A DNA stretch of 62,726 nucleotides from Acidobacteriota bacterium (GTDB lineage: Bacteria > Acidobacteriota > Vicinamibacteria > Vicinamibacterales > UBA823), in assembly GCA_002730525.1 (NCBI GenBank), contig PCAK01000009.1, positions 1-62,726 on the forward strand, written 5' to 3'. Of the stretch, positions 19,351 through 49,037 are shown piece after piece. Every line of letters begins with the position of its first letter. Positions within the stretch are counted from its first letter, which is position 1. A program made the translations under genes and the position numbers. The notes under the pieces were generated by a model. The model saw nothing but the letters and a program-made list of their open reading frames with translations. It had not been told where the DNA came from and ran no database searches.

Positions 19351-20337
19351 ATGGCACAGATCAATCTCGAGCGCGCGCAGCGGCCGACTCGCACCCAGCA
19401 AGATATGGGGGCCACCAGCCGCGGTCAGATGTTCAGGCGCCGGATGCCCGCGTCGGCGAGACGGCAGATTTTCCTCCGTCGGTTCGTTCTGGCGCCGGCT
19501 CGGGAAGCGCTGGTCAACGAGACGCGGACCGAGATCGACGACGTCGAGGCAATGACCACCGACGTCAAGGCGCTCGTGAAGGAGATGGGTGCGGACGTGG
19601 TGGGGATCGCCGCCTACGATTCACGCTTACTGTTCACCGACGCGCCCGAACGGGACCATCGGTTCGTGATCGTCTTCGGGATGTCCATGAAGTACGACTG
19701 CTTGATCGACGTCGGTCCTCGCTCGCAGGGCGAGGTGCACCGCGTCTACTACACGCTCGACGACATGGCGGTGCGCCTCGCGCAGCAGATCGGGTCGTAC
19801 GGCTACAGTGCGTGCGCGCAGCCGAACATGGGCGACATCCCGCTACCGGCCTACGGCTATCTGGCCGGTCTCGGCGAGCTCGGCAAGCATGGGTCGCTCA
19901 TCTCGCCCGAGCTGGGGTCGTCCTTCCGGCTGGTCGCGGTCTCGACCGACCTACCGTTGACGATCGACGGACCGAAGGACCACGGCATCGAGGACGTGTG
20001 CGCGTCGTGCAACATCTGCACCCGGTTCTGCCCAGGCGACGCGATCAAGCCTGAGAAGAAGGAGGCCAACGGCGTACTGCGCTGGCACGTCGATGCGCCG
20101 GCCTGCCTGCCGTGGTTCTACAAGATGTACGGCTGCAAGATCTGTCTGATGGTCTGCCCGCTGAACGCGCGCGGCCGGTTGAAGGCCGAGTTTCAGAAGG
20201 TGGCCGCCGACATTCGCCAGGTCAAGGATGCGAAGGGGATGGTGCGGCTGATAGAGCAGAGGACGGGTGAGGAATACACCAACCTCGACGGTGACGGCGG
20301 GGACGGTGACGGCGAGGTCAGCTCGACGGACCGCTGA
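19351..20337 (+). CDS. Fe-S protein related to reductive-dehalogenase/epoxyqueuosine-reductase C-terminal modules
   Basis: A 328-residue protein without the corrinoid-binding or catalytic parts of a full RdhA. The middle (AYGYLAGLGELGKHGSLISPELGSSFRL) is the conserved segment shared by QueG and RdhA proteins. Next is a 4Fe-4S motif CASCNICTRFCPGDAI (Cys217, 220, 223, 227), then a second cluster (Cys252 and CKICLMVCPLN). No TAT signal is seen. It may be a soluble electron carrier or a reductase of unknown substrate. SD-like GGGGGAG precedes ATG 19351. The ending is Asp/Gly rich. Confidence 0.75.
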   Translation: MAQINLERAQRPTRTQQDMGATSRGQMFRRRMPASARRQIFLRRFVLAPAREALVNETRTEIDDVEAMTTDVKALVKEMGADVVGIAAYDSRLLFTDAPERDHRFVIVFGMSMKYDCLIDVGPRSQGEVHRVYYTLDDMAVRLAQQIGSYGYSACAQPNMGDIPLPAYGYLAGLGELGKHGSLISPELGSSFRLVAVSTDLPLTIDGPKDHGIEDVCASCNICTRFCPGDAIKPEKKEANGVLRWHVDAPACLPWFYKMYGCKICLMVCPLNARGRLKAEFQKVAADIRQVKDAKGMVRLIEQRTGEEYTNLDGDGGDGDGEVSSTDR

Positions 20338-25191: not shown

Positions 25192-26598
25192 TCACTTCAC
25201 CGTGATCTGGATGACGGCCGACATCTGCTCTCCGGGGAGGGTTCGATGCTCGTCATCACCGGGCTGAAGGCAGAACCGATGAGGGCCCGGCTCGAGCTGC
25301 ACGACGATTTCCGAGGTCGCGTCGGGAAAATGGATCCAGGGCTGGCCCTCTGGGATGATCACGCCGGGGGGGAGACAATCCGTGTCGACGCCCAGTTGGT
25401 AATGTCCCGCGCCTGCCCGACCGCTGTCGCCCAGCGCGGCAATCGTGAAGTTCTCGGAGCCGAAGCGGAATGCGACGGGGCTTTCGACGGTCACTCCGTC
25501 CTGCGGCTCGACGAAGAAGATGCGGGGCTCGCCCGAAGCGGCCGGGCCCGCCGCTAAGAGGTTGGCGCTGTAGGTGCGCTGGGCGATGTAGACGTAGGGG
25601 ACGATCAGGATCACGAGCAGGAATGCGAAGCTGACGGCCGCAAAGGCGGTTCGGAGACGAATCCGTTCGAGAAACGCGAGTGGTGCTCGGTAGCGCTCTC
25701 CAGGCCCTTCGAGCAGGAAGACGATCAACGCTGCATGAATGATGGTGTGCCCGATGACCTCGGTCTTCCCGAACACCATGGTCGTCAGGAAGAAGACGAG
25801 TGTGATTATCAGGGCCAGGGGGCGCTGCAGAAGACGGATGATCAGCAAGTATCCGAGGCTCATCTCGACGAACGCGGCGCTGATCAGGAAGAAGTTCGGT
25901 TCCAGTCCGAGCGTCAACTGCGGGTGCACGTCGAGCAGGTAGCTGCTCCACTGGGGATAGATGATTTTTTCGAGCGCGGCCCAGCAGAGGGAGAACCCGA
26001 GTGTCGTATACAGCGCCGGAACACCCGAACTCCGCAAGGCTGGGTCGTTGGAGCGGCTGACCGCGAGGTAGCACCCCACACCGGTGAAGAAGGTGTAGTC
26101 GAGCATGTGGAACGTCCCGTACTGGGTCAGGCCGACCACGAACAACGCGATGACGATGATTCCAGCGGCCGGAACCGCCGCTTCGAAGATCAGGAGCAGC
26201 GCGACCAGAAACTGCACCCAGCCGACCCAGTCGCTGACGGCAAGTTCCGGCACGAACAACGTGCCCGCCTGCCATGAGAGCAGTAGCGTGGCGCCGAGAC
26301 CGATCCGCATCACCAGCACGCTGTGGACGCGGCGCGCGGCCAGCCACTGGCTGATCCTGGTGTACCAGGGCGAGGTCGCCAGATGGCGGTCGAGATAGAC
26401 GAACAGCCCGATCGTGGCCATGCTCAGGCCGGCGAGGGCGATGAACGTCGGCGTGACCGCTTTGGCCAGCGTCAGCGGCCGGTCGCCGAAGTCGAACTCA
26501 CTGAACCACTTAACGTGCGCGTGAAGCGGCCACTTGGCGAGGAGGCATGCGGCGATGATCGCGTACGTCAGGCGATGCATCCGCGAGAGGTTCACCAT
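25192..26598 (-). CDS. DoxX-like membrane protein fused to a DUF4399 domain
   Basis: A 468-residue protein. Residues 1-345 or so contain about ten transmembrane segments (for example FVALLLIFEAAVPAAGIIVIALFVVGL, split by charged turns) of a DoxX/HTTM-like kind. The last 110 residues are a soluble domain, IFFVEPQDGVTVESPVAFRFG ... GHYQLGVDTDCLPPG ... WIHFPDATSEIVVQLEPGPH, which is the DUF4399 pattern normally found as a small separate periplasmic protein. The fusion is unusual. The function is unknown; a periplasmic sensor or ligand-binding tail on a membrane redox protein is possible. Divergent from the ferredoxin-AOR operon, 83 bases away. Confidence 0.7.
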   Translation of the reverse strand: MVNLSRMHRLTYAIIAACLLAKWPLHAHVKWFSEFDFGDRPLTLAKAVTPTFIALAGLSMATIGLFVYLDRHLATSPWYTRISQWLAARRVHSVLVMRIGLGATLLLSWQAGTLFVPELAVSDWVGWVQFLVALLLIFEAAVPAAGIIVIALFVVGLTQYGTFHMLDYTFFTGVGCYLAVSRSNDPALRSSGVPALYTTLGFSLCWAALEKIIYPQWSSYLLDVHPQLTLGLEPNFFLISAAFVEMSLGYLLIIRLLQRPLALIITLVFFLTTMVFGKTEVIGHTIIHAALIVFLLEGPGERYRAPLAFLERIRLRTAFAAVSFAFLLVILIVPYVYIAQRTYSANLLAAGPAASGEPRIFFVEPQDGVTVESPVAFRFGSENFTIAALGDSGRAGAGHYQLGVDTDCLPPGVIIPEGQPWIHFPDATSEIVVQLEPGPHRFCLQPGDDEHRTLPGEQMSAVIQITVK

Positions 26599-26624
26599 GG
26601 AAGGGTAGGGCCGACGCGACGCCG

Positions 26625-26650
26625 CGAGGTATGACCGCGGTCATACCTCG
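26625..26650. promoter_or_regulatory. Perfect 26-bp palindromic operator upstream of the AOR operon
   Basis: CGAGGTATGACCG and its exact reverse complement meet with no spacer, giving 26 of 26 symmetric bases centred at 26637/26638. It sits in the 83-base gap between divergent genes, 32 bases upstream of the preferred ferredoxin start. Perfect symmetry of this length is rare by chance and indicates a dimeric regulator site. The ATG inside it at 26631 is in frame with the ferredoxin but is unlikely to be a start. Confidence 0.75.
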
Positions 26651-26681
26651 GGATAGGGGCGGCGCGTATAAGGAATACCCA

Positions 26682-27197
26682 GTGATTAAGTGCGATATCC
26701 GACTCTGCGTCGGGTGCAGGATCTGCGAGGTGACGTGCAGTGCCTTTCACTTCGGCGCGGTCTCGCCTGCGCTCTCGCGCATCCGCGTGGCCAAACTGGA
26801 AGAGATCGGGATCGACATGGCGGTCGCGTGCGTCAGTTGTGCCGAGAAGTCCTGCCTCGTCTGTCCGACCGACGCGCTGACCGTCGGGGAGGAAGGGGAG
26901 ATCGCGCTCGCCAGGGAGTTGTGCACGTCGTGCCAGGAGTGCGTCAGCGCCTGTCCGGTCGGTGCGGTCGGATTCTACGAGGACCTGCCACTCTTCTGCG
27001 ATCTCTGTGATGGCGACGTCTCGTGCGTCAGGACGTGCCCGACCGATGCGTTGTCGAACGTGGACGAGGGCGGCGAATCGCTGGAGGCGTTTGCGGCGTC
27101 CGATGGGAATCCGGCCGAGAAGCGCGCCGCCTACGTCGAGGTGCAGGGTGTGCCGCTGCGTGACAGCTGGGCCGCCGGCCAGAGAGTGGATTCATGA
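26682..27197 (+). CDS. Polyferredoxin (4Fe-4S), AOR partner
   Basis: A 171-residue ferredoxin starting at GTG 26682, chosen because AAGGA lies seven bases upstream and the protein then begins MIKCDIRLCVGC, the usual start of AOR-linked ferredoxins. The longer in-frame ATG at 26631 falls inside a perfect palindrome. Cysteine groups CVGCRICEVTC, CVSCAEKSCLVCP, CTSCQECVSACP and CDLCDGDVSCVRTCP can hold four 4Fe-4S clusters. It would pass electrons between AOR and another carrier. It overlaps the AOR gene by four bases (ATGA), so translation is coupled. Confidence 0.88.
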   Translation: MIKCDIRLCVGCRICEVTCSAFHFGAVSPALSRIRVAKLEEIGIDMAVACVSCAEKSCLVCPTDALTVGEEGEIALARELCTSCQECVSACPVGAVGFYEDLPLFCDLCDGDVSCVRTCPTDALSNVDEGGESLEAFAASDGNPAEKRAAYVEVQGVPLRDSWAAGQRVDS

Positions 27198-28990
27198 CGA
27201 TCTGTCGCGGACGGTGTCTGCGCGTCGATCTCACGACCCAAGAGATTGCCACGACCTCGACGCCTGACGACGGCATCGGCGGACGGAGTTGGAACAGCCT
27301 CACGCTTCTGCGCGAGCTGGCACCCGGCATCGATCCCCTCGGTCCCGAGAACATCCTCTGCCTGTCGGTTGGCCCGCTGACAGGCAGCGAGTTGATCGGC
27401 AGCTGCCGCTTCATCGCCAGCGCGAAGAGTCCGCTGACGGGCTACCTGGGCGATTCCGGCGCCCGCGGCTTCTTCGCGCCCGAGTTGCGCTGGGCCGGAG
27501 TCGATCAGATTGTGTTCACGGGCGCTGCCGAGCGATGGGTCTATCTGCTCATTGATGACGGCACGGTGGAGCTTCGAGACGCGTCGCATCTCGTCGGACG
27601 CGACATCACGGAGACGACCACCGACCTTCGCCGCGAGCTCCACGACCCTGATCTGCAGGTGGCGGCGATCGGCCCGGCCGGAGAGCACCTCGTCCGATAC
27701 GCGATCATCTCCTGCAACCTGGCGCGAGCGGCCGGCCGGACTGGTATGGGCGCCGTGATGGGCTCGAAGCGTTTGAAGGCGATCGCCGTGCGCGGCAGCC
27801 AGCCGGTGAAGCCGGCCGATCCGGATCGGTTCCGGCGGGCCTGCACCGAGCTCGAGGCGGCCATCGAGGGGCACCCCGAGTTCGAATCCCGCCGACTGTA
27901 CGGCACGACCCGGATCATGGACTCGCTGGCGGCGATGGGAGTTTTGCCAGCGTACCATTTTCGCAGCGCCAACTTCGACGAGGTCGAGAAGGTCAACGGC
28001 CGGGCGCTGCGACGGGACCATGTGGTCAAACCGAAGTCCTGCTACAACTGCAACATCTACTGCTCGCGGTACAACGTCACGGAGTACAACGAGGGGGAGG
28101 GCCCCGAGTACGAGGCCCAGGCCGGGTTCACCGTCAAGTGCGGGAACGCCGACCTCGAGCTGGCCGTCGGCGTGTCGAACACCGTCAACCGGCTCGGGCT
28201 CGATTGCATCAGCACCGCTGAGGTGATCGCGTGGCTGATGGAGTGTCGTCACGAGGGGCTCATTGCGGACGCGGACGTCGACGGAATCGATCTCGGCTGG
28301 GGTTCGCGAGAAGCCCTGCTGCGACTGCCGGAGATGATCGCGCGGCGTGAGGGGATCGGGAACCTGCTCGCCGACGGCTCGCGACGCGCCGCCGAGGTGT
28401 TCGGGCCCGAGGCCGAACGACTGACGGCGGAGGTCAAGGGGCTCGAACTCTTCTCGGCCGACCCGAGAGGGATCAAGGGGTACGGCCTCATGAACGCCGT
28501 GAACTCCCGGGGAGGTGACCACTACCGGGCGGAGCCCTCGATCGAGCTGACGGGAGACGAAGTCCTCGCGATCCGGCGGGTCGGCAATCCCGATGCGGCG
28601 CATGCGCTGAAGGAAGAGGGGAAGGGCGCCCTGGTCAACTACGCGGAGCACCTCGGCATCCTGTCGGACAGCCTGACGATCTGCAAGAACATCTCGTGCT
28701 GCATGGATGTCGTCGACTTTGACCTTGCGGCCGTCGCCTATTCCGGACTCCTAGGCAAGGACGTCTCACCAGGCCAGCTGTGGGAGGTGTGTACCGAAGT
28801 TGGCCAGGCCGAGCGCGATTTCAACCTCCGCGAAGGGCTCCGGCCCGACGAGGACACGCTGCCACGGCGCTTCGTGGATGCGCCGATTCCCGACGGACCG
28901 GCCGCGGGCACGACGATTGACATCACGCGGCTGGTCAGCGACTACTACCGAGAGAAAGGCTGGCGCGAGCCGCCACCAGGAGAGAACTGA
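27194..28990 (+). CDS. Aldehyde ferredoxin oxidoreductase family protein (probable tungsten enzyme)
   Basis: A 598-residue AOR, near the family length of about 605. The N-terminal domain binds the bis-pterin cofactor (SCRFIASAKSPLTGYLGDSGARGFFAPELRWAG, split here by its motifs SAKSPLTG and GARGFF). Cluster ligands are Cys283, Cys286 and Cys290 in KSCYNCNIYC and Cys497 in DSLTICKN, matching the spacing of archaeal AOR. AORs oxidise aldehydes to acids with ferredoxin, or run in reverse. Members also include benzoyl-CoA-reductase-like and unknown-substrate branches. Coupled to the ferredoxin before it and sharing a base with the SoxC-like gene after it. Confidence 0.9.
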   Translation: MTICRGRCLRVDLTTQEIATTSTPDDGIGGRSWNSLTLLRELAPGIDPLGPENILCLSVGPLTGSELIGSCRFIASAKSPLTGYLGDSGARGFFAPELRWAGVDQIVFTGAAERWVYLLIDDGTVELRDASHLVGRDITETTTDLRRELHDPDLQVAAIGPAGEHLVRYAIISCNLARAAGRTGMGAVMGSKRLKAIAVRGSQPVKPADPDRFRRACTELEAAIEGHPEFESRRLYGTTRIMDSLAAMGVLPAYHFRSANFDEVEKVNGRALRRDHVVKPKSCYNCNIYCSRYNVTEYNEGEGPEYEAQAGFTVKCGNADLELAVGVSNTVNRLGLDCISTAEVIAWLMECRHEGLIADADVDGIDLGWGSREALLRLPEMIARREGIGNLLADGSRRAAEVFGPEAERLTAEVKGLELFSADPRGIKGYGLMNAVNSRGGDHYRAEPSIELTGDEVLAIRRVGNPDAAHALKEEGKGALVNYAEHLGILSDSLTICKNISCCMDVVDFDLAAVAYSGLLGKDVSPGQLWEVCTEVGQAERDFNLREGLRPDEDTLPRRFVDAPIPDGPAAGTTIDITRLVSDYYREKGWREPPPGEN

Positions 28991-30219
28991 TGAATGCAAA
29001 GGAACAGGGTCGCAGGCGCTTCTTGAAGAGCGGCGCGGCGCTGGCCGGATTGGCGGTGGGCGGTCCCCCGTCGGCAAGCGGCCAGCCGATGTCGGCGGAT
29101 GTCTCCCGGATCCCCCCCTACGGCGTCCGCTCGCGGTTCGAGACATCGCACCGTGGCAGCGGGAGATTGCACTCGGGGCAGTCGCCGCTTCAAGATTCGG
29201 TCGGGATCATCACGCCGAACCCACTCCACTACGTGGTGAGCCATGGGGCCTGGTCGCCGGATATCGATCCTCAGGCACATCGTCTCCTGGTCGACGGCAT
29301 GGTCGACCGTCCGCTGGTCTTCACGATGGACGAGTTGAAGCGCCTGCCGTCCGTCACGCGGACCCATTTCCTCATGTGCGCGGGCAGCAGCTACGTGACG
29401 CGCGGTCCGAGGCGGAACGCGCGGACCGTTCAGGAGACCCACGGGTGGACGAGTTGCGCCGAATGGACCGGGGTGCCGCTCTCCATCGTGCTCGATGAGG
29501 CTGGCGTGCAGGATGGGGCCAGCTGGGTGGTCGCGGAAGACGTGACGAAGAAGTGGACGGTGAGCATCCCGCTGGCGAAGGCGATGGACGACATGGTGCT
29601 GGTCTACGGCCAGAACGGCGAGGCGATACGCCCCGAGCAGGGCTACCCGTTGCGGATGCTCGCCCCGGGCTTCGAGGGCACCCGCAGCACGAAGTGGCTG
29701 AGGCGGATCAAGGTCGTGGACGAGGCCTATCTCACCAGGTGGGAGATCACCGTCTACACGAATCTGATGCCGGACGGCAAGGCACGCTGGTTCCAGTTCG
29801 AGTTCGAACCAAATTCCGTGATCACATTCCCGTCGGGCGAGCAACAGCTGCCGGGCCCAGGATTCTTCGAGATCACCGGTCTGGCCTGGTCTGGCGGGGG
29901 CGCCGTCAGCAGGGTGGAAGTGTCCGTGGACGGTGGTCGAACCTGGGCGGATGCGCAGATTCAGGAACCGGTGCACCGGATGGCACATACGCGGTTCCGT
30001 TTCCCCTGGCAGTGGCAGGGCGGCGAGGCGACGCTGCAGTCGCGCTGTACCGACGAGCGGGGGGACATCCAGCCATCGCTGGCCGAGTTGAACCAGATCT
30101 GGGGCGTGGACAACGAATACTGGACGACGTCCACCAACCGGGTCCAGCACCTCAACGCCATTCAACCCTGGAAGGTCGATCGGGATGGGAGCGTTCACAA
30201 TGCGATATGGGAATCCTGA
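28990..30219 (+). CDS. soxC: SoxC-like molybdopterin sulfite dehydrogenase family protein
   Basis: A 409-residue sulfite oxidase-fold enzyme with a Tat signal (RRRFLKSGAALAGLAVGG). Motifs follow SoxC closely: LQDSVGIITPNPLHYV, HRLLVDGMVDRPLVFTMDELKRLPSV, the Mo-ligand Cys130 in HFLMCAGSS, then THGWTSCAEWTGVPLS and YGQNGEAIRPEQGYPLRML. A dimerisation domain ends the protein. SoxC with SoxD oxidises the sulfane sulfur on SoxY in the periplasm. Here soxXAYZB are absent from the window and CAGNS-type residues are CAGSS, so the substrate may differ. Its ATG shares a base with the AOR stop (TGATG). Confidence 0.85.
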   Translation: MNAKEQGRRRFLKSGAALAGLAVGGPPSASGQPMSADVSRIPPYGVRSRFETSHRGSGRLHSGQSPLQDSVGIITPNPLHYVVSHGAWSPDIDPQAHRLLVDGMVDRPLVFTMDELKRLPSVTRTHFLMCAGSSYVTRGPRRNARTVQETHGWTSCAEWTGVPLSIVLDEAGVQDGASWVVAEDVTKKWTVSIPLAKAMDDMVLVYGQNGEAIRPEQGYPLRMLAPGFEGTRSTKWLRRIKVVDEAYLTRWEITVYTNLMPDGKARWFQFEFEPNSVITFPSGEQQLPGPGFFEITGLAWSGGGAVSRVEVSVDGGRTWADAQIQEPVHRMAHTRFRFPWQWQGGEATLQSRCTDERGDIQPSLAELNQIWGVDNEYWTTSTNRVQHLNAIQPWKVDRDGSVHNAIWES

Positions 30220-30892
30220 TCTTCTCGTACCACTCGTCGTTGTGTTGACCCTGGCGGCCAGCTCCGCGCTGGCGCAGGGACCCGCGTACGGGCTGGGCAG
30301 GGCTCCGACGGATGAAGAGGTCAGCGCCTGGGGCATCATCGTCGGTCCCTCCGGACAAGATCTCCCCCCAGGGGGTGGAACCGCCGCGGAAGGCGCGGGC
30401 ATCTACGCCGAGAAGTGCGCCTACTGTCACGGACCGACCGGGGCAGAGCCCTTCATGTCTCGGAGGCGGGAGCAGCCGTACACGCCGGAGATGTACTGCT
30501 GCTTCCCCGCGCCTCTCGTGGGAGGCGAATCCTCGCTCACGACGCTCATCCCGGTGAAGTCCGTCGGAGCCTATTGGGCCTCGGCCACGACGCTGTGGGA
30601 CTACATCGCCAGAGGCATGCCGCCGAATGAGAACTACCGGAACACGCGAGGGGGCTACGCGTTCGCCGAGAGAGTCAACGCGCAGGGCCCGCTCAGCGAC
30701 GACGACGTCTACGCGCTCACCGCGTTCATTCTGTTTCAGAATGGCCTCGTCGCAGAGCGCGACGTCATGAACGCCGAGAGTCTACCGAGAGTCGAGATGC
30801 CTGGCCGTGACGTGATGATCCCCGCCGACCCAAACGAGTGGTACCCGAGGCCGCAGGTCGATCCGCACGTCAGCCCGAATTCGAGGCGGTAG
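30200..30892 (+). CDS. soxD: SoxD-like c-type cytochrome
   Basis: A 230-residue exported cytochrome. ATG 30200 is preferred because GGGAG lies about seven bases upstream; ATG 30185 would add five residues. Signal peptide (LLVPLVVVLTLAASSALAQ), then a mono-haem domain with CAYCH (Cys73, Cys76, His77). The downstream text SVGAYWASATTLWDYI, RGMPP, LSDDDVYALTAFILFQNGLV and LPRVEMP is the SoxD signature; the probable Met ligand is in MPPNE. It takes electrons from the SoxC-like subunit to the respiratory chain. It overlaps the soxC gene, as the ordinary soxCD pair does. Confidence 0.87.
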   Translation: MRYGNPDLLVPLVVVLTLAASSALAQGPAYGLGRAPTDEEVSAWGIIVGPSGQDLPPGGGTAAEGAGIYAEKCAYCHGPTGAEPFMSRRREQPYTPEMYCCFPAPLVGGESSLTTLIPVKSVGAYWASATTLWDYIARGMPPNENYRNTRGGYAFAERVNAQGPLSDDDVYALTAFILFQNGLVAERDVMNAESLPRVEMPGRDVMIPADPNEWYPRPQVDPHVSPNSRR

Positions 30893-30922
30893 CGCTCGGC
30901 CCTCGTCGCGTGGCCGAGAGAG

Positions 30923-31262
30923 CTAGCCCTTGGTGTAGGCCGTCCGGTTCGACGACGACGGGTCGCCAAGCACGCCACCGAGCGTCGCCTCGACCACCAG
31001 CGACGGCGGGCTCGCCAGCCGGGTCGAGGGTTCGAGCGACAGCGTCCGCGGCGTGCCGACGCCGCGGACACTGCCGTAGGCGCCCACTTCGCCCCAGCCC
31101 AGGTTGTCGGGAAACATCAGGACGATATTCGGCCGCTCGGACCGGCCGTTCTGCGCGGCGACCGGCGCCGCGGCGCCGGCCAGGCCGAGTCCGGCGACGA
31201 GCCAGCACGTGATGAACCGACCAAGTCTCTCGAGCCTCTCCGTCCTCCGTGGTCTTGCGCGG
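30923..31262 (-). pseudogene. Sulfatase N-terminal remnant
   Basis: On the minus strand a signal-peptide-like stretch (FITCWLVAGLGLAGAAAPVAAQ) leads into ERPNIVLMFPDNLGWGEVGAYG, the unmistakable start of arylsulfatases, which carry the first metal Asp in this motif. The normal continuation (TPRIDRLA..., then CxPSR) is missing. After GTPR come about 40 unrelated residues and a stop. No plausible start codon lies at the proper place. A head of about 50 residues remains of a 450-600-residue enzyme. Confidence 0.7.
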
Positions 31263-31268
31263 CGGGGA

Positions 31269-32726
31269 TCAGTCGGTGGTGCCCCTGACGTTCGCGACCA
31301 GATCGTCGAACGTGACGACCGGGCCGTGAATCGGCACGATCCTGTCAACGCACAGGCCCAGCCGCTCGATGTTCTCGAGGAGGTTGGCGGCAAACGGCTG
31401 CAGATCGCGGCCCGGACTGAAAGCGTCGGCCTCGACGAGCAGCCGTGCCTCGGGGAAGTACGCCATCAGGAGCGAATCGGCGTGCGGGCTGCCCGGGATG
31501 TGATGGAGGTGCACCGTCATCGACGCATCCTCCAGGGTCCTCTCGTCACCGACCGTCTCGAGCGTCAGCTCCTGCGGAGTCCGACTGAGCGCGTCGGGCG
31601 CGATCGTCCGTTCCCGGACGACCAGCGCTCGATAGAACGGGCCGTTCGCCTCGTGCGTGATGACGGTGAGCCCTTCCGAGACCGCTGCGCGGATCCCGCC
31701 GGAGTGGTCGAAGTGGTGGTGGGAGTTCACCAGTTGCGTCAGCGGCTTGTCCGGCACGAGTTCCCGGGCTCGGGCGATCACGGCGAGGGCCCGGGCTTCG
31801 TTCGGCGCCTCGAAGAGCATGAGGTGATCGTCGAACTCCACGAGCACGCTGTGGTGGGACTGTCCACCCAGTAGCCAGATGCCGTCTGCCAACTCCTCCA
31901 CGACGACGTCGACCGGCGGCGGGCCGGCGGGAGGATCCGCCGACGCCGCGCCGGCCGGCGCGGCAAGGTCGCCGACATCCGCGTTGATACTCTGCACCGT
32001 CACGTTGATGTCGGCCGTCGGATAGCCGGCGGTCGCCGTCGTCAGGCGCGTCGGCAGCATCAGCCCGGCGGCCTCTTCGTAGCCCGCGAACGTGGTCTCG
32101 ACCGCGACGTCACCCAGATTGGCGTTGTGCGCCATCGACGTGACGCGGCTGGGCAGCCCGGACTCGGCGTCGATCGCCAGCGTGAACGCGGCGCCGCCGG
32201 CGGTCGTCACGTCGACGAACGCCTCACCGTCGCTCGCCCCGGCGTTCGTGAGCATGGCGGCGGGATCCAGCGCCGCGTGGACGCTCGTGATCGGGTGGTG
32301 ATAGACCTCGGCGAGACGATCGCGCGCGGCGCCGCTCGCGACCCGCGTCGCGGTGCCGTCGGGTGCGACATCGTAGCCGACGTCGCCATCGACGCCGAAG
32401 ATCTGCGGCTGGGGATCCGGGCCGCGAAAGTAGGTGAAGGCGGGCGTGCGCGTCCGCTCGACGCGGGATCGCCCTGCCGCTAGGTCGACGCGCTGGATGT
32501 AGCCGCTGACGGTGTATTGCTGCCCGGTGGCGTCAGGGGTCATGTCCTGGCCCAAGTTCCCGGTTGTGCCGTCACCCTCGATCGCGAGCGTGGTGACGCC
32601 CTCGACGAGGTCGCGGCCGCCGAGCGCAGCAGCGGCATCCGCGACGACCTGCTGTTCCGGTGTGAGTGGCGTACAGCCCGCCAGGGTTGCTACGGCGAAT
32701 AGGGTGATCCAGGGGCCTCGACTCAT
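31269..32726 (-). CDS. MBL-fold metallo-hydrolase lipoprotein with N-terminal beta domain
   Basis: A 485-residue protein starting at ATG 32726, behind GAGGAG; the first Met upstream lacks such a site. A lipoprotein signal (LFAVATLAGC) is followed by a 240-residue beta-rich domain with LolA-like pattern, then an MBL domain with VNSHHHFDHSGGIRAA (HxHxDH), HIPGSPHADSLLMAYFP and IVPIHGP. Domain order resembles Acidobacteriota MBL proteins annotated as quinoprotein relay or cyclase-like; the substrate is unknown. Tethered in the periplasm. Confidence 0.82.
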   Translation of the reverse strand: MSRGPWITLFAVATLAGCTPLTPEQQVVADAAAALGGRDLVEGVTTLAIEGDGTTGNLGQDMTPDATGQQYTVSGYIQRVDLAAGRSRVERTRTPAFTYFRGPDPQPQIFGVDGDVGYDVAPDGTATRVASGAARDRLAEVYHHPITSVHAALDPAAMLTNAGASDGEAFVDVTTAGGAAFTLAIDAESGLPSRVTSMAHNANLGDVAVETTFAGYEEAAGLMLPTRLTTATAGYPTADINVTVQSINADVGDLAAPAGAASADPPAGPPPVDVVVEELADGIWLLGGQSHHSVLVEFDDHLMLFEAPNEARALAVIARARELVPDKPLTQLVNSHHHFDHSGGIRAAVSEGLTVITHEANGPFYRALVVRERTIAPDALSRTPQELTLETVGDERTLEDASMTVHLHHIPGSPHADSLLMAYFPEARLLVEADAFSPGRDLQPFAANLLENIERLGLCVDRIVPIHGPVVTFDDLVANVRGTTD

Positions 32727-47195: not shown

Positions 47196-47295
47196 CGTCA
47201 GCGCCCGTCGAGCCAGGCGAACAGTTCCACCGTATAGCCGCCCGGGTCTTCGAACCAGAACGAACGCGCCGGTGTCTCGGCGCCGTTGACGATAC
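47196..47295 (-). pseudogene. VOC/glyoxalase-family C-terminal remnant
   Basis: On the minus strand a short frame reads IVNGAETPARSFWFEDPGG, then YTVELFAWLDGR and stops. FxFxDPxGYxVEL is the closing strand motif of vicinal-oxygen-chelate proteins and contains the last metal Glu. Nothing upstream continues the domain, because the radical SAM gene's promoter region begins there. A tail of about 30 residues out of about 130. Confidence 0.6.
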
Positions 47296-47375
47296 ATGAC
47301 CTGCGTCATAGGACCTGACAGGCCGGGTGCGTACACTGTCTTATTTTGCTCGCACCTCACCCCGGAGAGATCAGC

Positions 47376-49037
47376 ATGCCGACGGCACGACACCCGAAAG
47401 GCTCGCGCGCTCGCGTACTCCTCGCGTCGGTATTCGGCCCATTCAGTCAGGACGACGAATTCGGCAGCCGCGCCATCAACCCGATGGAGCTGTATCAGAA
47501 TCAGGTCACGCGCGAGCAAGGGCCCTTCTCGCTGAGGATGTTTCACCGGTCGTGGGGACTCATCCTCATTCAGGAGAACATCTCAGCGCCGTCGACGTTG
47601 CTCGATTTTCCGAGCCGGGACCGGTTCATTCGCGAGATCAAGAAGGAGCGCTACGACATCATCGGCATCTCCGGGATCATCGTGAACATTGGCAAGGTGC
47701 GTGAGATGTGTCGGTTGGTGCGGGAACACTCCCCGGATTCGGTCATTGTCGTGGGCGGACACGTGGCCGCTGTTCCAGGGATCGAGCAGCAGCTCGACGC
47801 CGATCACGTCGTGAAAGGCGAGGGGATACGCTGGTTTCGCGAGTTCCTGGGTGAGCCGGTCGAGAAGCCGATTCAGCACCCTGCCATCCCATCGTCGTTC
47901 GGATTTCGGCTCATGGGCATGCGCGCGCCGGCGGGCGGCGGCAACCGGGCAGCGACGATCATCCCTTCGGTCGGCTGCCCGATGGGGTGCGACTTCTGCA
48001 CGACGTCCGAGTTCTTCGGCGGAAAAGGAAACTTCATCAATTTCTACGAGCACGGGGCGGACCTGTTCGAGGCGATCTGCGACGTCGAGAAGAAACTCCA
48101 CGTGTCCTGCTTCTTCCTGATGGACGAAAACTTCCTCTTGTACAAGAAGCGAGCGCTCGAATTGCTCGAGTGCATGAAGGCATCCGGGAAGTCGTGGTCG
48201 CTGTACGTGTTCTCGTCGGCGAATGCGATCGCGAAGTGGGAGATGCGTGAGCTCGTCGAACTCGGCGTCAGCTGGATCTGGCTGGGATTGGAATCGCCTC
48301 ACAGCGGCTACGCGAAGCTAACCGACACCGACACCCTTTCCCTCACGCGCGAGTTGCAGCAACACGGTATCCGCGTCCTCGGCTCCAGCATCGTCGGCCT
48401 CGAGCACCAGACGTCAGAGAACATCGTCGGGGAAATCGAGCACGCGGTGGCGCACGATACCGACTTCCACCAGTTCATGCTGTACACGCCGATGCCGGGC
48501 ACGCCACTCCAACGGCGCATGGCCGAAGAAGGACGGATGCTCGACGAGGTCGACCTTGCCGACATCCACGGACAGGACCGCTTCAACTTCCGTCACGCGG
48601 CCATCGGCCGGGACGAATCGAAGTTGATCCTGGATTGGGCGTTCCGCTTGGACTACGAGCGAAACGGCCCGAGCCTGTACCGCCTGATGCGGACAATGTG
48701 GGAAGGCTGGCGTCGGTATCACGACGATCCCGATCCGCGCGTGCGGGAGAGGTTCGCCGTTGACGGTGCCCAGCTTCGCTACGGCTTCGGCGCAGCGCTC
48801 TGGGCGATGGAGAAGTATTTGCGGCGTTCGAATCGAAAGGTCAGTGACCGGATTCGATCGCTCAGGCTGGAAATCGAAGGCGAGTGGGGTGGCCTCTCCC
48901 GCGTCGTCAACCGGGTGGTCGGGCCGGTCCTGCTCTGGACCAGTCGCCGAGAGACGCGGCGGTTTCCGTCCGGGCGCCCCCTCGAGCCGAAGACGTTCAT
49001 CACGCGTCGCGGGGGGCTCGCACCCGACATGTCTTGA
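47376..49037 (+). CDS. B12-binding-domain radical SAM protein
   Basis: A 553-residue protein starting at ATG 47376 with GGAGAG upstream. The N-terminal part (RVLLASVFGPF, YDIIGISGIIVNIGKV, VIVVGGHVAAVPGIEQQLDADHVVKGEG) is a cobalamin-binding Rossmann domain. Cys201, Cys205 and Cys208 in CPMGCDFC bind the SAM 4Fe-4S cluster, followed by a TIM-like barrel with SWIWLGLESPHSGYAKL and FMLYTPMPGTPL. Class B radical SAM enzymes methylate or rearrange lipids and secondary metabolites; the substrate is unknown. The C-terminal 150 residues are helical and probably specific to the subfamily. Confidence 0.9.
   Translation: MPTARHPKGSRARVLLASVFGPFSQDDEFGSRAINPMELYQNQVTREQGPFSLRMFHRSWGLILIQENISAPSTLLDFPSRDRFIREIKKERYDIIGISGIIVNIGKVREMCRLVREHSPDSVIVVGGHVAAVPGIEQQLDADHVVKGEGIRWFREFLGEPVEKPIQHPAIPSSFGFRLMGMRAPAGGGNRAATIIPSVGCPMGCDFCTTSEFFGGKGNFINFYEHGADLFEAICDVEKKLHVSCFFLMDENFLLYKKRALELLECMKASGKSWSLYVFSSANAIAKWEMRELVELGVSWIWLGLESPHSGYAKLTDTDTLSLTRELQQHGIRVLGSSIVGLEHQTSENIVGEIEHAVAHDTDFHQFMLYTPMPGTPLQRRMAEEGRMLDEVDLADIHGQDRFNFRHAAIGRDESKLILDWAFRLDYERNGPSLYRLMRTMWEGWRRYHDDPDPRVRERFAVDGAQLRYGFGAALWAMEKYLRRSNRKVSDRIRSLRLEIEGEWGGLSRVVNRVVGPVLLWTSRRETRRFPSGRPLEPKTFITRRGGLAPDMS

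Follow-up and report, generated by a model that had tools for sequence, protein, structure and literature searches.

The AOR–SoxCD locus

The window analyzed here covers positions 1 to 62,726 (forward strand) of contig PCAK01000009.1 in GenBank assembly GCA_002730525.1, from an Acidobacteriota bacterium of the order Vicinamibacterales (UBA823); it lies on contig C9 of a genome (G000) that is 99.2% complete. It carries a unit of four genes, encoding an iron–sulfur (Fe-S) protein, an aldehyde ferredoxin oxidoreductase (AOR), a SoxC-like molybdoenzyme and a SoxD-like cytochrome c (Table 1). All four open reading frames (ORFs) were intact and on the same strand, and their coordinates bore out the overlaps of 4 bases, 1 base and 20–35 bases given in the original prediction, which had been made from the sequence alone. 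The unit is probably co-transcribed.

Table 1. Features of the AOR–SoxCD locus, in coordinates of the window.
Feature	Position	Strand	Remarks
AorA-type four-[4Fe-4S] electron-transfer subunit	26682..27197	+	GTG start; alternative ATG 26631
AOR-family W(Mo)-bis-pterin oxidoreductase, TIGR04076-associated Acidobacteriota subclade	27194..28990	+	AFOR_N and AFOR_C
Orphan SoxC-like periplasmic Mo enzyme	28990..30219	+	twin-arginine translocation (Tat) signal RRRFLK; Mo-ligand Cys130
SoxD-like mono-heme cytochrome c	30200..30892	+	one CxxCH (CAYCH, residue 73 from start 30200); alternative start 30185
Perfect palindrome of 26 bp, CGAGGTATGACCGCGGTCATACCTCG, with TATGAC-N4-GTCATA; candidate operator of CRP/FNR type	26625..26650	.	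between Fe-S start (26682) and divergent gene start (26598)
Continuous DNA homology with Arabian11_MAG_43, 89.8%	26592..30911	+	coincides with the four-gene unit; genes beyond both edges differ
Divergent polytopic membrane protein, C-terminal DUF4399	25192..26598	-	palindrome-bearing intergenic region in common with the unit

The first gene had been called a polyferredoxin; the gene is there, and AorA-type four-[4Fe-4S] subunit is the better name, with 17 cysteines and 8c0z_C (AorA) as best PDB match (E 7e-25). Its GTG start, the one given in the original prediction, was preferred over the upstream ATG: it is preceded by AAGGAA, which L025 retains, and it agrees with the first residue of the L084 homologue. 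The AOR scored 230 bits against Pfam AFOR_N and 339 bits against AFOR_C, and its best solved relatives were 9mqx and 1aor. The SoxC-like protein combined the Oxidored_molyb and Mo-co_dimer domains and scored 441.3 bits against TIGR04555 (sulfite_DH_soxC), above the cutoff of 420. Its best PDB match was 2xts_A (SoxCD; E 2e-71), which was also the best fold match of its predicted structure (mean predicted local distance difference test, pLDDT, 75). Since the substrate loops, residues 76–83 and 136–138, had low pLDDT, pocket geometry was not taken from this model. The SoxD-like protein matched 2xts_B best (E 1.6e-25), and such a protein was the partner of SoxC in the orphan loci examined too. A Tat-type signal was not visible by eye in the AorA-like and AOR proteins. 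The earlier view, that an AOR of the cytoplasm is tightly packed in one unit with a periplasmic pair of SoxCD type, was borne out.

Conservation within the genus

The four-gene unit was also present in UBA2161 (genome G006; 99.8% DNA identity over 17 kb) and, in a second species, in Arabian11_MAG_43 (locus L025). It is more than a chance arrangement: the order was the same in the second species, homology was bounded by the unit edges, and ratios of nonsynonymous to synonymous divergence (dN/dS) of 0.08–0.40 indicated purifying selection on all four genes. Synonymous divergence (dS) between the window and L025 was 0.24–0.39 for the unit genes and 0.39–0.45 for the flanking genes. These values are close, indicating that the unit was inherited together with its surroundings; the idea that the unit had recently passed from one species to another was therefore rejected. 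Upstream, an Omp85 stretch was syntenic with L025 at 84%.

Two observations concern the assemblies themselves. Within the one genus, identity between G000 and G006 was mosaic, at 99.7–99.9% in some stretches and 88–92% in others, which suggests recombination or mixed bins. Arabian11_MAG_43 is labelled Dehalococcoidia, yet its contig L025 encodes Omp85 and shows synteny with the window, which is acidobacterial; Arabian11_MAG_43 is probably a mislabelled or contaminated bin. Mosaic identity (99.7% versus 88–92%) and a Dehalococcoidia label on a bin with a syntenic Omp85 stretch are what might be left behind if two contigs had been wrongly joined during binning or assembly. Such an artefact is nevertheless hardly credible, as the junctions consist of overlapping codons, lie within a single continuous contig and are found in three assemblies, of which one is 10% diverged.

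Distribution of the two modules

SoxC relatives were found in 43 of 396 genomes of the phylum, in marine Gammaproteobacteria and on plasmids, and SoxCD elsewhere formed a stand-alone two-gene cassette in varied neighborhoods. The window's own genome contained two further soxCD pairs (C31, C45). Orphan cassettes such as those of pPAN2, Methylosinus pOB3b1, Acidobacteriota and marine Gammaproteobacteria resemble the window in having soxC adjoining a short cytochrome c gene outside sox operons; they differ in having no AOR neighbor, and the Paracoccus pantotrophus and Methylosinus copies keep an arginine lost in the window (the R55 equivalent; see below). As an observation in its own right, plasmid pPAN2 (L112) of P. 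pantotrophus, the classic Sox model species, bears a stand-alone soxCD pair whose SoxC is 54.5% identical to that of the window, and no other sox gene is annotated in the 13 kb examined.

AOR next to SoxCD was not found outside the genus among the Acidobacteriota, Gammaproteobacteria and plasmid loci and the genomes searched. The layout is real and unusual. At strict thresholds (AOR E ≤ 1e-100, SoxC E ≤ 1e-80), none of the 396 genomes held both enzymes outside the genus (9 with AOR, 41 with SoxC; about 1 expected by chance). At the order level, G087, G088 and G090 had a remoter AOR plus SoxC, on different contigs. In the literature searched, no paper describing the AOR–SoxCD union was found, nor one naming AOR, Acidobacteria and sulfite dehydrogenase together; SoxCD and AOR were co-named only for Cycloclasticus hydrocarbon metabolism, each mentioned once. 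In the collections searched, the union had no precedent.

Outside the genus each module as a rule occurred without the other, the pattern that the original prediction had named, together with unlinked expression, as the sign of a chance neighborhood; within the genus the unit was kept. A neutral history, in which soxCD was inserted by chance behind AorA-AOR in the ancestor of the genus and kept as read-through with no physiological link, would account for the modules being found apart elsewhere and for enzymes that occupy different compartments. It would also account for a single origin, which is indicated because only one lineage has the union. It sits less well with a unit that stayed whole in two diverged species (dS 0.24–0.39) while the genes at both edges changed, with purifying selection on all four genes, with translational overlaps, and with one conserved palindrome ahead of the whole. 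We regard this history as an unlikely though appreciable possibility.

The AOR subclade

In the order, sampled with 162 genomes, the window AOR shared 45–47% identity with the closest others; in the phylum (396 genomes) the closest were 78% identical and came from genomes of another family (G346 and G458). Loci L084 and L085 held the closest AOR (78%) and Fe-S proteins (61–65%). In the AOR tree the window protein formed a group with those of G346 and G458 (100/100), nested in a clade of 12 rows (100/98). This mismatch between tree and taxonomy suggests that the AOR module spread by lateral transfer.

The related clusters (L084, L085, L068) read TIGR04076–AorA–AOR, with an amino-acid permease gene next in L084 and L068, and differ from the window in having TIGR04076 and no soxCD. 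Relatives of the window AOR at 78% and at 45–47% identity both stand in clusters of this kind. TIGR04076 was absent from G000, G006 and G516. Proteins of this family recurred with the AorA-AOR subclade (L084, L065–L070), sometimes in a two-domain form, and are a candidate accessory factor. Two further AORs were encoded in the window's own genome, on C28 and C39, next to small ORFs whose likeness to MoaD/ThiS was judged by eye.

Both AFOR domains and the Fe-S cysteines of the AOR family were present in the window protein, but the four second-shell residues of AOR sensu stricto were not all there. Thr243, Glu313, Tyr427 and His448 are conserved in most characterized AORs (PMC12096430). The window AOR kept the residues aligned to the Pyrococcus furiosus Fe-S ligands C288, C291, C295 and C494 and to T243, E313 and H448; it had alanine at Tyr427 and glutamate at Tyr452, where its clade has alanine or glycine, and glutamate. 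Like Aromatoleum aromaticum AorABC (8c0z; PMC6365974, PMC10413684), the window system has a catalytic subunit of AorB type and, encoded just upstream of it, a four-[4Fe-4S] subunit like AorA; the AFOR domains, the Fe-S cysteines and the Glu313 and His448 equivalents are also shared. It differs in the change of Tyr427 to alanine, in lacking the FAD (flavin adenine dinucleotide) subunit AorC and the MoaD-like aorDE in the operon, in its unrelated flanking genes and downstream soxCD, and in that its relatives carry a TIGR04076 gene, although its genus does not.

The SoxC active site and the Sox pathway

When aligned to SorA (2blf), the window SoxC kept C130 (C104, the Mo ligand), H85 (H57), Y206 (Y236) and R352 (R366), and C130 was invariant in 20 aligned sequences. 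Two arginines were gone: SorA R55 corresponded to Val83, a position fixed by the aligned R55M mutant entry 2ca3, and R109 to Tyr135. In sulfite dehydrogenases, SorA R55 and R109 are the sulfite-binding arginines. Because both equivalents are missing, sulfite oxidation by the window SoxCD is doubtful as judged from the alignment. A literature search on Arg55/R138 returned nothing.

The window SoxC fell outside an 8-row clade (100/100) holding the Sox-operon SoxCs. The R55-equivalent arginine was kept in all eight rows of this clade and lost in 16 of the 16 rows outside it, the window's included; the deep branches among these outside rows were poorly resolved. At the Tyr206 position the Sox-operon SoxCs had Phe or Trp. 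The CAGSS sequence at the Mo-ligand loop, which had been read as a sign of a shifted substrate, was common to L025, L026 and L027, with CAGSG in L028 and CAGNR, CAGNS and others in the other orphans. The pocket does differ from those of known sulfite enzymes, but CAGSS occurs in few relatives and the loss of R55 is more widespread. Against TIGR04555, two Sox-operon SoxCs scored about 645 bits, and two of four other members without the arginine missed the cutoff (L077, 404; L036, 405). The SorA family model gave the window SoxC 151 against a cutoff of 600.

Paracoccus pantotrophus SoxCD (2xts), the best match in sequence and fold, resembles the window pair in its Tat-exported SoxC fold, Mo-ligand cysteine and cytochrome c partner. 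The window differs in having Tyr206 rather than Phe or Trp, in the loss of the R55 equivalent, in a mono-heme SoxD, and in a genome where SoxZ and SoxB were not found. Starkeya novella SorAB (2blf) likewise pairs a Mo enzyme with a mono-heme cytochrome, and its Cys104, Tyr236, His57 and Arg366 are kept; Arg55 and Arg109 are replaced, and identity is about 27–30% in the structural alignment.

An ordinary sulfite dehydrogenase, detoxifying or respiring sulfite, beside an ordinary broad aldehyde oxidase would make the juxtaposition the only unusual feature. The shared fold and best PDB matches, the score above the TIGR04555 cutoff, and the retained Mo-ligand cysteine and several catalytic residues are consistent with this. 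It is unlikely, however, in view of the division of the SoxC rows by the R55 equivalent, the two arginine-less members under the cutoff, and an AOR clade without Tyr427 and Tyr452.

SoxZ (PF08770) was not found in G000, G006 and G516, and was found in both sox-bearing control genomes; SoxB (TIGR04486) had no match in the window's own genome. The original prediction had noted that soxXAYZB was missing, and for SoxZ and SoxB, the Sox partners searched, this extends to the genome. As these two were not found and the genome is 99.2% complete, a Sox sulfane dehydrogenase role for SoxCD can, with good confidence, be considered excluded on gene content.

The same prediction proposed a single pathway, in which a sulfonated or thiol compound would yield an aldehyde for AOR and sulfite for SoxCD acting as a sulfite dehydrogenase. 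The shared operon, the passing of the "sulfite dehydrogenase" model TIGR04555 (441 versus 420 bits), and the alignment of Cys130, Tyr206 and Arg352 with SorA C104, Y236 and R366 would suit it. The best hit to sulfoacetaldehyde acetyltransferase (Xsc) in the genome, however, reached 293 bits against a curated cutoff of 676, leaving a sulfonate or sulfoacetaldehyde route unsupported, and no desulfonation gene was recognized in the unit or among the motif-site neighbors examined (see below). Both sulfite-holding arginines of SorA are missing, no export step links the compartments, and the regulatory clue points instead to aldehyde and aromatic genes together with nitric oxide (NO) and respiration genes. 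We consider this pathway very improbable.

A candidate operator and a possible regulon

The palindrome upstream of the unit was unique in the window, and its arms GGTATGA-N6-TCATACC were kept in L025 amid otherwise diverged sequence. It contains the core TGAY-N4-RTCA, whose geometry fits that of CRP/FNR-type boxes; the FNR box is TTGAT-N4-ATCAA and the NNR/Dnr box TTGAC-N4-GTCAA. Exact copies of TATGAY-N4-RTCATA numbered 12 in G000 and 11 in G006, against no exact copy of a reversed control pattern in G000 and, even with one mismatch, none in G000 and one in G006. Nearly all copies were intergenic and near gene starts. Sites lay in the window (26630–26645 and 47295–47310) and on contigs C1, C15, C20, C40, C42 and C45 of G000. 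The copy at 47295–47310, with one mismatch, precedes a B12-radical-SAM gene (47376–49037); in G006, the relative of this gene (L144, 82% DNA identity) comes with an exact copy.

Neighbors of the motif included two thiamine pyrophosphate (TPP) enzymes with benzoylformate decarboxylase as best NCBIfam match, a phenylacetate-CoA-ligase-like and HpaB-like pair, an NnrS/ScdA_N fusion, cytochromes and a histidine kinase, and in G006 a catechol-2,3-dioxygenase-like protein (316.5 bits, cutoff 320.2). These targets, some of them named from scores that fall short of the curated cutoffs, hint at a respiratory control of aldehyde and aromatic catabolism, and TATGAY-N4-RTCATA may mark an undescribed CRP/FNR-like regulon. 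A further site adjoined a pair of genes for a FAD flavoprotein (fumarate-reductase/AprA-like) and a ferredoxin (L105:15896-18214, minus strand), next to ABC-transporter-like genes.

The palindrome as an operator of soxCD itself was rejected, there being no site near soxCD-2 of the same genome; a site about 3 kb from soxCD-3 lies at a TPP-enzyme gene. No FNR-like core was found upstream of six related AOR clusters.

Interpretation of the unit

The unit is real and genus-specific and joins two known modules, each of an uncharacterized subclade. We favor, as the probable explanation, a composite operon of one Acidobacteriota genus, in which a soxCD-like cassette behind AorA-AOR supplies co-regulated respiratory inputs. 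A stand-alone cassette would have been placed directly behind an AorA-AOR pair in this one marine genus. The cytoplasmic AorAB-type enzyme would oxidize aldehydes to acids, with the four-cluster subunit relaying the electrons to a soluble acceptor, and the Tat-exported Mo protein with its mono-heme partner would oxidize a small periplasmic substrate and reduce cytochrome c. A single CRP/FNR-like box would switch both modules with aldehyde-, aromatic- and NO-related genes. Because one such box stands ahead of the operon, AOR and SoxCD may be seen as co-regulated electron inputs rather than proven consecutive steps; a pathway shared by the two is, on present sequence evidence, unproven.

Several points weigh against this explanation. 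Gene order, overlaps, conservation, homology, residue changes and motif copies were observed directly; co-transcription and regulation, like the direction of electron flow, the regulator family and the substrates, are inferred. Outside the genus AOR and SoxC showed no tendency to share a genome, so that a need for the two to cooperate is not indicated by gene content. In Arabian11 the motif occurred only at the four-gene unit, with one mismatch, a scarcity that weakens the regulon there, though the bin label is doubtful. Members of the regulon scored below equivalog cutoffs, and their names are therefore approximate.

A bolder proposition, speculative and quite unlikely, is that the arginine-less orphan SoxCDs form a new class of periplasmic Mo dehydrogenases, with a substrate other than sulfite or SoxYZ-sulfane. 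In this genus they would be tied to an uncharacterized AOR subclade in a redox-controlled aromatic and aldehyde regulon, where they might, for example, oxidize a small by-product arising from the same substrate, whether sulfur-containing or not.

In metagenomes, soxC genes of this sort receive the name "sulfite dehydrogenase" and are taken to indicate sulfur oxidation. That reading may be wrong, as a sulfite-binding arginine is missing here and in the majority of the copies examined from Acidobacteriota and Gammaproteobacteria, and SoxZ is absent from the genomes checked. The unit also offers a testable entry to an uncharacterized AOR subclade that is associated with TIGR04076 and with permeases for amino acids, and the defined candidate operator motif predicts genes switched with it.

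Neighboring features

A relative of the divergent DUF4399 membrane protein gene (79% DNA identity) adjoins soxCD-2 in G006 (L111:8177-9616). In L025 its position is occupied by a MacB-type gene, and it is therefore not a fixed member of the unit. Farther upstream, 19351–20337 encodes a reductive-dehalogenase/QueG-like Fe-S protein near an amidohydrolase gene; the Fe-S protein's TIGR02486 score, 97 bits, did not reach the cutoff of 160. Downstream, the 128-bp stretch 30921–31048 matches L025 6.6 kb further on; its reading as a dispersed repeat was unsupported, since among the loci compared it occurred only at the window locus and L025. A short ORF at 30923–31393 on the minus strand, with no Pfam match, appeared by eye to be a sulfatase N-terminus joined to the tail of a gene that is fuller in L025, and is probably a deletion scar.

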